DNA of 64,000 nt from Brachycybe producta. Lineage: Eukaryota > Arthropoda > Diplopoda > Playtdesmida > Andrognathidae. The translations under genes and the position numbers were made by a program. The notes beneath the pieces were generated by a model. The model was not told the DNA's origin and did not search any database. It worked only from the letters and a program-made list of their open reading frames with translations. The stretch spans positions 2,297,501 to 2,361,500 of the forward strand of contig JAUPFP010000014.1 in assembly GCA_036925085.1 (NCBI GenBank), written 5' to 3'. Positions 17,108-60,040 of the stretch are shown here, in pieces (position 1 is the stretch's first letter; each line of letters begins with the position of its first letter).

Positions 17108-17885
17108 GCTTGTGAGTTTGCAATCACAGAAGGTCTTGTTTGTGAGTTTGCAATCTCGGAAGGTCTTGTGAGTTTGCAATCTCGGAAGGTCTCGTGAGTT
17201 TGCAATCTCGGAAGGTCTCGTGAGTTTGCAATCTCGGAAGGTCTCGTGAGTTTCCATCCTCGGAAGGTCTCGTGAGTTTGCAATCTCGGAAGGTCTCGTG
17301 AGTTTCCATCCTCGGAAGGTCTCGTGAGTTTCCATCCTCGGAAGGTCTCGCGAGTTTGCAATCTCGGAAGGTCTCGCGAGTTTGCAATCTCGGAATGTCT
17401 CGTGAGTTTGCAATCTCGGAAAGTCTCGTGAGTTTGCAGTCTCGGAAAGCGTTGTGAGTTTGCAATCTCGGAAAGTCTCGTGAGTTTGCAATCTCGGAAA
17501 GCCTCGTGAGTTTGCAATCTCGGAAAGTCTCGTGAGTTTGCAATCTCGGAAAGCCTCGTGAGTTTGCAATCTCGGAAAGCCTCGTGAGTTTGCAATCTCG
17601 GAAAGTCTCGTGAGTTTGCAATCTCGGAATGTCTCGTGAGTTTGCAATCTCGGAAAGTCTCGTGAGTTTGCAATCTCGGAAAGTCTCGTGAGTTTGCAAT
17701 CTCGGAAAGTCTCGTGAGTTTGCAGTCTCGAAAAGCCTCATGAGTTTGCAATCTCGGAATGTCTCGTGAGTTTGCAATCTCGGAAAGTCTTGTGAGTTTG
17801 CAATCTCGGAATGTCTTCACAGTTTGCAATAGCATAATGTCTTGCGAGTTTGCAATCTCGGAAAGCCTTGTGAGTTGCCATCTCA
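17108..17885. repeat. 26-bp tandem array, about 30 units
   Basis: The unit is GAGTTTGCAATCTCGGAAAG plus TCTCGT (26 bp), seen for example at 17221 and 17247. Variants cluster: TCGGAAGG units to the left with interspersed TTTCCATCCTCGG, and TCGGAAAG units to the right. Since 26 is not a multiple of 3 and the unit lacks stops, all three minus frames stay open (up to 315 codons, with a 26-residue superperiod). Those ORFs are best read as by-products. Confidence 0.93.
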
Positions 17886-18757
17886 GAATGCCATTGGTAA
17901 GTTTTGGTTGAGAGTGTACTATTATTCTATAGAATGTTTTCTGCTTAAAAGAAAACTGCAAAAAAAAAAATCTACACAGACAATAATGAAACTTTCTTAA
18001 GATTTAATTCTTACCTGAAAAAAGAAAGAAAAAATATATAACAGTATGAAAGAAATTGCTTTTATTAAAAATAATATATTAAAATTTGTAACGTTTAGAA
18101 ATGCATGGAGAGAAAGAGAGAGAGAGAGAGAGAGAGGGGTTGAGAGAGGAGGCTTTTTTATTATTATTATTATTATCAATATCTCTTCTTTTTGTGTTGT
18201 TGAATGTGAATAACAAATCCATGTTGTCACTTTCAGAAACTCACTTTTAATTTAAAACGTCATCTGGGAATTAATTTAGAAGATCTTTTTTTTTAGTTGA
18301 GAGGAAATTGTAATAGAATTTTTTTGTATTATTAAATGATAATAATAAGAAAAAAAGGTGGAGGATGAAGTTGCGATAGAAAGAAGAAAAATGAATGAAA
18401 TCCTTTTAATTTTTCGCGTCACAAAATCATGTTAAACATTTTCTTATCGATTAGTTGCTTTATTTTATTTTTTTCATTAGTCTGGGATCTTTTTTTTTTT
18501 TTGGATGAAAGGGTAACCGGGGGAGGGGGCCTGAGGTGGTGTTAAGGGAAAATTGAGAAGGATGGGGGAGGGGAGAGTCTTCTTTTATTTTTTTTTCTCG
18601 CTAAATTAAACCTGATTATTGCGATAGAGAAACACGTTAGGTGTATTTAACATTGTCACATTAATATTGTTTCAAATTGAAGCAAAAAAAAATTAAGCTT
18701 ATGTTTCTTTTTTTGTTTCTGCTTGTTGTCACTTTTAAAAAAATGTCAAGCCCCCAT

Positions 18758-39830: not shown

Positions 39831-39867
39831 CTTTATAAAAATGTAGAAATGGTATAATAATCTACTG

Positions 39868-40530
39868 CTACTACTATTACTACTGCTGCTAATGCTACTG
39901 CTACTACTACTACTACTACTGCTATTGCTACTACTACTACTACTACTACATCTACTACTACTACTACTACATCTACTACTACTACATCTACTACTACTAC
40001 ATCTACTACTACATCTACTACTACTCCTGCTACTGCTACTACTACTACTCCTGCTACTACTACTACTACTCCTGCTACTACTACTACTCCCACTACTGCT
40101 ACTACTACTACTCGCACTACTCCTACTACTACTACTCGCACTACTCCTACTACTACTACTTCCACTACTACTACTGCTACTACTCCTATTACTACTACTA
40201 CTATTACTCCTACTGCTACTCCCACTACTCCTATTCCTACTACTACTACTCCCCCCACTACTCCTACTACTACTCCTATTACTACTACTGCTACTACTCC
40301 TATTACTACTACTACTATTACTCCTACTGCTACTCCCACTACTCCTATTCCTACTACTAATCCTACTACTACTACTACTCCTATTACTACTACTGCTACT
40401 ACTCCTATTACTACTACTGCTACTACTCCTATTACTACTACTGCTACTACTCCTACTGCTACTACTCCTATTACTACTACTGCTACTACTCCTACTACTA
40501 CCACTACTACTACTACGACTAATAATAATA
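39868..40530. repeat. Long interrupted (ACT)n / (CTA)n array, ~660 bp
   Basis: Runs of ACT or CTA are interrupted by CCT, GCT, ATT, CAT and CGC triplets that themselves recur, e.g. blocks containing CCTATTACTACTACTGCTAC three or more times. All interruptions keep triplet phase. The 217-codon poly-Leu and 223-codon poly-Val ORFs are its translations on the two strands. Confidence 0.95.
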
Positions 40531-41007
40531 ATACTCTCCGACTAGTACACTTTTCTGTTGCACACCAAATAGGATGAATATATTTTTCGTCCTTTTTTTT
40601 CGGTGGTCGTAACTTAGCACTGACTTTTCTAGGCTCTTAGAAACTAATAATTGGCATTTTTCTGTCAACTTTATATATGAAATATGATGGAAAAGTGACT
40701 GAAGAAGAAGAAGAAAAAACAGCATTCATTTAGCTCTTTTTTTTTCTTCTTGTCATAAAATCACAATTCATATAACATTCAGTGTTATGAATTATTGCTG
40801 AAGTCGTAACTTCTTTGGAGAAAAAAAAACAACAACCGGAAATTGCATAATTTAGAAATGATATTGAGATGTTTTATTGAAGGAAGATTATTTTAAACTC
40901 TTTTATTTGTTTATTATGGAATTTTAGAAGCAAGCAAGCAACACTTAAGAGGAAACTTTGGAATTATTAGAAACTAGAAGGGATAGTTGAATTACTTAAT
41001 AGTACGG
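40531..41007. other. No gene recognised
   Basis: AT-rich. The TAGAAACTAGAAGGGATAG motif at 40968-40990 belongs to the dispersed motif also seen at 16540 and 19808. Confidence 0.4.
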
Positions 41008-42390: not shown

Positions 42391-42399
42391 AACTATTTC

Positions 42400-42779
42400 A
42401 CAGGCAATTAGAAAACGGGATGAACAAAAGTTGGCTCCGCCCTTTTTTATGATTGGCAACTTCTACTTGGTTGGTCATGGGGTCTGACGTCACATGCCTC
42501 CACTCTTTTCAACGTCCAATCACACAATATACGGCCATACCATGTTGAACACACTGGTTCTCGTCCGATCACCAAAGTTAAGCAACATTGGGCCCAGTCA
42601 GTACTTGGATGGGTGACCGCCTGGGAATACTGGTTGTTGTTGGCATAAAAACCCTCTGCCATAGGCCTATTTGGCTGCTTGCGGAGTACTAATTGTAATA
42701 AAAAAACGAATTAGAAGTTGCTGTTCGTCATAAAAACGGGGGAGCCAACTTCTGTTCATCTTGTTTTCTAATTGCCTGT
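42400..42779. mobile_element. Family A MITE carrying a 5S rRNA sequence
   Basis: ACAGGCAATTAGAAAACGGG to TTTTCTAATTGCCTGT with the perfect duplication aactatttc at 42391-42399 and 42780-42788. Left arm, left CCAAT region, CRE TGACGTCA and right arm are all in place. About 170 bp of foreign DNA (5S plus a short tail) sits between ATCACACAA and AAACGAATTAGAAG, where other copies have CACACAACAAACCAATTAG. Confidence 0.95.
42528..42646 (+). rRNA. 5S rRNA-like sequence (pseudogene or SINE head)
   Basis: About 119 bases match metazoan 5S rRNA from TACGGCCATACCATGTTGAA through TTCTCGTCCGATCACCAAAG to the 3' end GGTTGTTGTTGGC. The Pol III internal control region is visible: box A AAGTTAAGCAACATTGGG (about 42576-42593), then GGCCCAGTCAGTACTTGGAT, then box C GATGGGTGACCGCCTGGGA (about 42608-42626). 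Several differences from typical 5S are C-to-T or G-to-A at former CpG sites, so the copy has aged. No T-run terminator follows. Instead a ~60-base tail (CCCTCTGCCATAGGCCTATT... ending TAATAAAAAAA) suggests a 5S-derived SINE or a retroposed 5S. It is unlikely to be a functional ribosomal gene. Confidence 0.9.
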
Positions 42780-43322
42780 AACTATTTCTAATCAGGCATT
42801 GCCTATAACCGCGGAAAATGAAGACATACCCCTACCTGTCTTGCAAATCACACTATTGAACGTGTACTGCAGGTAGATATTTGTTTGTAGTTATTCCGGT
42901 TTGAATTTGAATAATTATGCTGCGAGCAAGCTCAACAGTGCCTGTGGTAGAGGGACTATTTAGTCGACTGTAAGAAAAAAAAAGTCAAACCACGCCCATT
43001 TTACACAGACCTACAGGAAATGAAGACATTATTGTCTTGCAAACTTCACTGGGAACATATTGGAACAAAGTAATTCTTGACATTGTTTCGTGTGTTGTCT
43101 CTCAAACTCATGTTGCACTTTTGTCAGCTTGATGTGGACCCGGCCTAAGATTTTTTAAGTTGTATTGTCATAAGTTCATAACCGTGCTACAACGGCTTTG
43201 GCTGTGACGTCATTTTGACTGCAGTTGCAGTATGTATCGGATGTTAACATATTTAGACAATAAGGCCATCACTCAATGTAATGACTGCACATGTAATAAC
43301 TACTTTGTCTGCTGTTTGAAAA
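42780..43322. other. No gene; repeat debris
   Basis: CAACAGTGCCTGTGGTAGAG (42936) is a relative of the 30054 motif. GTCAGCTTGATGTGGACCCG then GCCTAAG (43124-43149) is the inverse of the end found at 60406. Confidence 0.4.
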
Positions 43323-59680: not shown

Positions 59681-60040
59681 ACAGGCAATTGTGCTCAGTG
59701 TTATTTCTTTTGTCCCGCCCTTTTATGACATCAGACCAAGTAACAAACCAATTAGAAATTGAAAAGGGCGGAGCATGTGACATCAGACCAAGTAACAAAC
59801 CAATTAGAAATTGAAAAGGGGCGGAGCATGTGTGACATCAGACCAAGTAACAAACCAATTAGAAATTGAAAAGGGGCGGAGCATGTGTGACATCAGACCA
59901 AGTAACAAACCAATTAGAAATTGAAAAGGGGCGGAGCATGTGTGACATCAGACCAAGTAACAAACCAATTAGAAATTGATGACGCTCATAAAAGGGTGGA
60001 GCCAACAAAATGTTACTGCTGGGCACCCTTGCCTGCCTGT
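59681..60040. mobile_element. Family A variant MITE with five tandem core units
   Basis: ACAGGCAATTGTGCTCAGTG to GGGCACCCTTGCCTGCCTGT. The core segment from GACATCAGACCAAGTAACAA to GGGCGGAGCATGTG recurs with starts at 59727, 59779, 59834, 59889 and 59944 (52 bp, then 55 bp). The later units are nearly identical. Each keeps a CCAAT box and a GC box; the CRE reads TGACATCA. No flanking duplication was seen. Confidence 0.9.

Follow-up and report, generated by a model that had tools for sequence, protein, structure and literature searches.

LINE-1 chimeras have been reported with U1-U6, U3 and 5S, and either template switching or RNA ligation has been proposed for their formation (PMC13174262). 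The U6/LINE-1 cases are described there as independent events, usually without further spread. Vertebrates and certain insects have SINEs derived from 5S rRNA, one of which, HaSE3, has been suggested to originate by template switching to 5S rRNA (PMC3272025, PMC7245038). LINEs with stringent recognition of their 3' ends commonly carry a stem-loop there, and terminal repeats other than poly(A) occur in some LINEs (PMC3747384).

The birth of SINEs is mostly inferred from old families, and fusions of the kind considered here are accidents thought able to found new repeat families. The single-copy fusion described below, from the genome of the millipede Brachycybe producta, illustrates, on a small scale and in a fresh state, the step proposed to come first. 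The LINE involved terminates in a hairpin with repeats other than poly(A), and the fusion lies at the exact hairpin base. It is probably a chimeric 5S-LINE retrocopy, made in one event and nested in an old resident MITE.

The Resident MITE

The window analysed is a stretch of 64,000 nt (G000:C14:2297501-2361500) within a genome of 295 Mb and 442 contigs, and positions refer to this window. The MITE ends at 42400 and 42779 and has terminal inverted repeats (TIRs) of 48 nt with 90% complementarity, followed by inner arm pairing. Its 5' arm occupies 42400-42529 (the inner edge is ambiguous, 42526-42530) and its 3' arm 42704-42779, both on the forward strand. On either side is a perfect 9-bp target site duplication, AACTATTTC, the left copy at 42391-42399 being identical to the right copy at 42780-42788. 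A first-pass annotation of this DNA had described both the intact ends and the perfect duplication, and both were borne out. The 5' arm matches MITE copies of about 207 bp throughout the genome at 86-91%, with full-length matches to other copies at 86-90%. The element is short, with TIRs, 9-bp duplications and many copies (2265 first-look candidates genome-wide), the features by which a MITE is recognised; at about 205 bp without the insert, it is too short to have coding capacity. A 9-bp duplication and long TIRs may point to a superfamily such as the Mutator-like elements.

This family, family A, is very dense in the window (positions 1-64000), where blastn finds well over 12 copies or fragments. 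A tandem array at 59726-59979, with 4.7 copies of a 55-bp unit and 98% matches, has a unit that resembles internal sequence of family A (73-78%, blastn) and is probably a minisatellite derived from it. On another contig (locus L065, G000:C9:1680961-1681432) three head-to-tail MITE matches with a spacing of about 217 bp make up a MITE tandem array, and TATAAAAACGG was found at the borders read in it.

The perfect duplication had been taken as a sign of a recent or well-kept insertion. It is ordinary for this family: of 29 further copies examined, 8 have duplications matching at 9/9 positions when the ends are called strictly. Compared with the MITE consensus, the arms have changes at 18 of 203 positions. 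Eleven of these 18 changes are near-private, present in at most one of 28 other copies. The insert between the arms departs from its sources at only 2 of 165 positions (1/117 in the 5S part and 1/48 in the tail). This contrast between arms and insert is significant by Fisher's test (p 0.0009), also when only the near-private arm changes are counted (11/203, p 0.044). The consensus was built from copies similar to the 5' arm of this locus, so that bias, if any, is toward small differences. The TIRs have diverged as well, matching at 63 of 77 aligned positions here versus 72 of 75 in the consensus. We conclude that an old, already diverged MITE carries a young insert.

The 5S Part of the Insert

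A 5S rRNA sequence inside the MITE had been recognised by the first-pass annotation, and Rfam confirms it. The gathering score of RF00001 is 38, and its match at 42527-42645 reaches 96.7 bits (E 8.7e-20); this is the only Rfam match at gathering score within the 64-kb window. BLAST homology to genomic 5S copies spans 42531 to about 42647, and the 5S copy is placed at 42531-42647 on the forward strand. Tandem 5S copies from C66:582546 on share 116 of 117 positions with it, and those closest to it in the large 5S arrays differ at 3 of 118. Numbered by analogy, the insert would cover the 5S transcript from about nucleotide 5 to about nucleotide 120, close to the mature 3' end. The internal promoter region is retained, as seen in the 116/117 identity to 5S copies. 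The upstream gene flank and the T-run terminator of the genomic copies are both absent, which indicates that the 5S part was copied from RNA.

The 5S part had also been thought to show decay of the CpG type, since it has TpG or CpA where other 5S copies read (the C67 pair, one in C46 and one at C66:691k) have CpG. This does not stand up. Every decay-like base of the insert is also present in the C66:582k copies, and the one difference from these lies outside CpG. The decay-like bases were therefore inherited from the source and did not arise after insertion. To judge from the copies compared, the TpG/CpA versus CpG contrast separates 5S gene types.

GACTGCC is found in the C33 and C75 arrays among the matches listed, the C208 arrays mostly have GACTGCC with CTCATCC upstream, and GACCGCC occurs in the C66, C67 and C46 copies. 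At least two 5S gene types coexist in the genome. Apart from the tandem arrays, five inverted (divergent) 5S pairs occur in C67:410069-681625 and at locus L148, with 373-392 bp between pattern starts. The pair at L148, the sole inverted pair read, has the more CpG-rich sequence type.

A 33-base pattern from box C has 943 exact matches in the genome. Among those listed, in contig order, the window copy stands alone in contigs C1-C32. Exact matching of this pattern lets diverged 5S copies escape detection, and it is exact 5S retrocopies that appear to be rare in C1-C32.

The Tail Is the 3' End of a LINE

The A-ended tail that had been noted between the arms is present at 42647-42706 and has three parts: an A-run (42647-42651), a 48-nt unit (42652-42699) and a second A-run (42700-42706), all on the forward strand. 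The first A-run joins the 5S sequence to the unit. In both sources it amounts to only 1-2 bases; at this place GGCATATTTT or GGCATAATTTT stands in the 5S copies that match best, and most LINE copies have TTTTATGT ahead of the hairpin. The 48-nt unit is the 3'-terminal hairpin of a LINE with the start of its (TGTAAT)n end, and differs at one of its 48 bases from the form common in the genome. Its predicted fold has an energy of -16.5 kcal/mol versus a mean of -9.8 for shuffled sequences (z -2.7), and TGTAAT repeats come after the hairpin in many copies of the LINE. The second A-run, at the 3' junction, is part LINE tail and part MITE; the consensus MITE has three A.

Searched by itself, the tail matches many contigs. 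A 38-nt core has 935 copies in the genome at up to two mismatches, with none for the reversed pattern used as control. In 91 of 107 tail loci read, the upstream sequence is a single contiguous LINE; they are not a random sample, as 30 (with the window locus among them) came from the tail search and 77 from the first part of the list of 935. Two of the LINE copies, L033 and L030, have sequence in common over about 1.4 kb. Part of a reverse-transcriptase domain (RVT_1) was detected in two of four reading frames tested from a third, L024. This copy, the first LINE reference, is internally deleted relative to L033, which gives the length list an artificial mode near 200. The LINE upstream in 91 of 107 loci and the reverse-transcriptase domain rule out the tail as an independent SINE. 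A search outside family A had been advised with that idea in mind; the tail is indeed genome-wide, but as the end of a LINE, and the composite with 5S was found once.

In seven of the 107 tail loci, the window locus among them, LINE similarity stops 0-2 nt from the hairpin base. In 16 other loci the stops are spread over 3-22 nt from the base, some of these being internal deletions, and a truncation peak at the hairpin base is only suggestive. Sixteen loci were not classed as LINE. Apart from the 5S locus itself, the other 15 have no Rfam match, so that no further small-RNA chimera on this LINE tail was found among them. By eye, four of the 16 (L073, L091, L093 and L116) have short or internally deleted LINE sequence. 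One of the 15, the hairpin-only L124, has 240 bp of upstream flank, from 22 nt off the tail, that is single-copy in the genome.

Uniqueness of the Composite

Each of the three junctions of the insert occurs at one place in the 295-Mb genome, the window locus, when up to three mismatches are allowed: MITE/5S (21 nt), 5S/tail (38 nt) and tail/MITE (29 nt). The 5S/hairpin junction with a free spacer of 0-12 nt is likewise found there only. Junction searches had been proposed as a means of finding several loci with different 9-bp flanks; run genome-wide, they returned this one locus and no second composite with another flank. With a cut-off of E <= 0.01, 5S sequence was detected at none of the other 106 tail loci read, out of 935 genome-wide. 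There is so far no sign in these searches of the composite having spread, and it looks like a one-off chimera rather than a member of a family.

These results bear on both of the histories first offered for the locus. One was that the MITE had moved with the 5S aboard, that is, it acquired the composite elsewhere and carried a Pol III promoter to its present site. Intact MITE ends and a perfect 9-bp duplication are what such a transposition would leave, but this duplication is as common in the family as noted above, the locus is single, the arms are more diverged than the cargo they would have carried, and the TIRs have decayed. We regard this history as very improbable, with a small chance left for a recent move of one diverged MITE that had just taken up its cargo; a MITE with a Pol III promoter is here best read as a nesting accident, not as spreading cargo. 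The other history was a 5S-derived SINE that had jumped into a resident MITE. The insertion into a resident MITE is supported by the unique junctions and by the more diverged arms; the SINE is not, since the tail is the 3' end of a LINE.

A SINE may nevertheless be sought in another form, as an old or rare family like SINE3 whose remaining copies have diverged beyond detection. The SINE3 plan is a 5S head with a LINE tail, and the insert has both: a 5S-derived head with a predicted internal Pol III promoter and a LINE-derived 3' tail. A dispersed family of uniform composites, which SINE3 is, was not found, the searches as set having turned up one copy, and the locus is for this reason not classed as SINE3. 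An old family is hard to reconcile with a 5S part identical at 116 of 117 positions to genomic copies. The junction also occurs once, whether with up to three mismatches in 38 or with the 0-12 nt spacer, and at E <= 0.01 no 5S sequence is seen at the 106 other tail loci read. There is only a slim chance that such a family exists.

Origin of the Insert

Two unrelated RNA copies are fused in the insert on the same strand and both in sense, first 5S and then the LINE 3' end, with the 5-base A-run between them. The 3' part is a 5'-truncated 3' end of a LINE, as in a chimeric retrogene. The LINE part starts exactly at the hairpin base and the 5S part ends at about its mature 3' end. As these are natural boundaries of the two RNAs, the copying of both by a LINE in one event is favoured. 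In this course of events, the LINE reverse transcriptase would begin with the RNA of its own element, copying from the 3' end through the (TGTAAT)-type terminus and then the 48-nt hairpin. At the hairpin base the enzyme would move to 5S rRNA and copy it nearly to its 5' end, and the cDNA would be placed in an A-rich spot of the resident, diverged MITE. Alternatively, the LINE and 5S RNAs could have been ligated before copying. Arrival of both halves together, and the LINE's own enzyme as the agent, are what the structure points to; template switching would be preferred to ligation. The A-run between the halves is not explained by a plain template switch and counts against a single event.

At most AATA, by eye, is repeated around the whole insert. 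This is consistent with the LINE itself, since its 23 copies with clean 5' ends have no duplications beyond those of shuffles (3.22 versus 3.08, with 271 of 1000 shuffles as high); that set omits seven loci with the tail end off the pattern, as well as those in which LINE words recurred further upstream or the LINE match exceeded 40 nt. In an earlier test 49 of 200 shuffles were as high as observed. A cruder test favoured duplications (6 of 500 shuffles as high), weakly, as chaining had over-extended the LINE boundaries. It is replaced by the 23-copy test, and truncation lengths from the over-extended chaining were not used.

The directly repeated ATAAAAA (7 bp) that flanks the hairpin part on both sides has a different bearing. 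In cross-pairings of the window locus with other LINE copies, 7 bp was reached in 1 of 46. This repeat is the expected trace of a separate LINE insertion, and the insert could be the product of two: an A-tailed 5S retrocopy in the MITE, and later a LINE truncated to its hairpin that entered the A-tail and duplicated ATAAAAA. LINE endonucleases generally favour A-rich sites, and an A-tail would suit one. Hairpin-only insertions of this LINE do exist, and the single-copy flank of L124 looks like plain target DNA. Against this, the 23 clean copies have no detectable duplications, the hint from the cruder test aside. Two rare events would also have to fall in a stretch of some 170 bp, with the later one hitting the 3' end of the 5S precisely, and no other exact 33-base 5S match lies in C1-C32 among the matches listed. 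We consider two insertions unlikely, but a more serious contender than cargo or a hidden family, and prefer the single chimeric retrocopy.

Function and Other Features of the Window

The 5S part is probably functionless now, because the upstream gene flank and the T-run are missing. The first TTTT after it on the same strand is at 42764. A Pol III transcript from the retained promoter would therefore end in the MITE arm, with the LINE hairpin internal. Such a transcript would not end like the LINE's template and would thus be poorly suited to another round of copying.

Tandem repeats are also found at 17142-17888 (26-bp unit, 29 copies) and at 39862-40535 (CTACTA-type, 110 copies). They contain long reading frames that are probably spurious; three frames tested from these two repeats have no Pfam match.

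Comparison with Known Systems

In its layout the insert corresponds to a progenitor of SINE3 type, with progeny not found. A bolder view is that the locus captures a SINE at conception, in which 5S and a minimal hairpin tail recognised by the LINE reverse transcriptase are joined at the hairpin base, a preferred point of template exchange, to give a SINE3-type unit in one step. We hold this only tentatively and think it rather doubtful. Zebrafish SINE3 and Helicoverpa HaSE3 resemble the insert in having a 5S head and a tail in common with a LINE (PMC3272025, PMC7245038). Both are described there as families of several copies, HaSE3 with a body as well, whereas here there is a single composite and no body.

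MER6 offers a parallel for the nesting, as it has retroposon-derived sequence, a V-SINE domain, within a MITE (PMC6887750). The V-like sequences are there described as part of the family and as spread with the MITE; the cargo here is at one locus. In the literature searched, from which subscription papers were mostly absent, no report was found in which 5S is fused, as a single copy, to the tail of a LINE of the hairpin type.

The U6/LINE-1 and 5S/LINE-1 chimeras are bipartite, with the small RNA joined 5' of LINE 3' sequence, as in the present insert (PMC13174262). The 5S in 27 cases of 5S/LINE-1 is typically antisense and truncated; here it is sense and near full length. Duplications of 7-17 bp accompany 20 of those 27, whereas in this MITE the insert as a whole has no clear duplication on its flanks. 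The LINE-1 chimeras end in poly(A), whereas the LINE part here is the hairpin alone, of a LINE with a hairpin and TGTAAT repeats at its end. With these differences, the locus appears by its sequence to belong to a known kind, the LINE-mediated chimeric retrocopy, in this case nested in a MITE.
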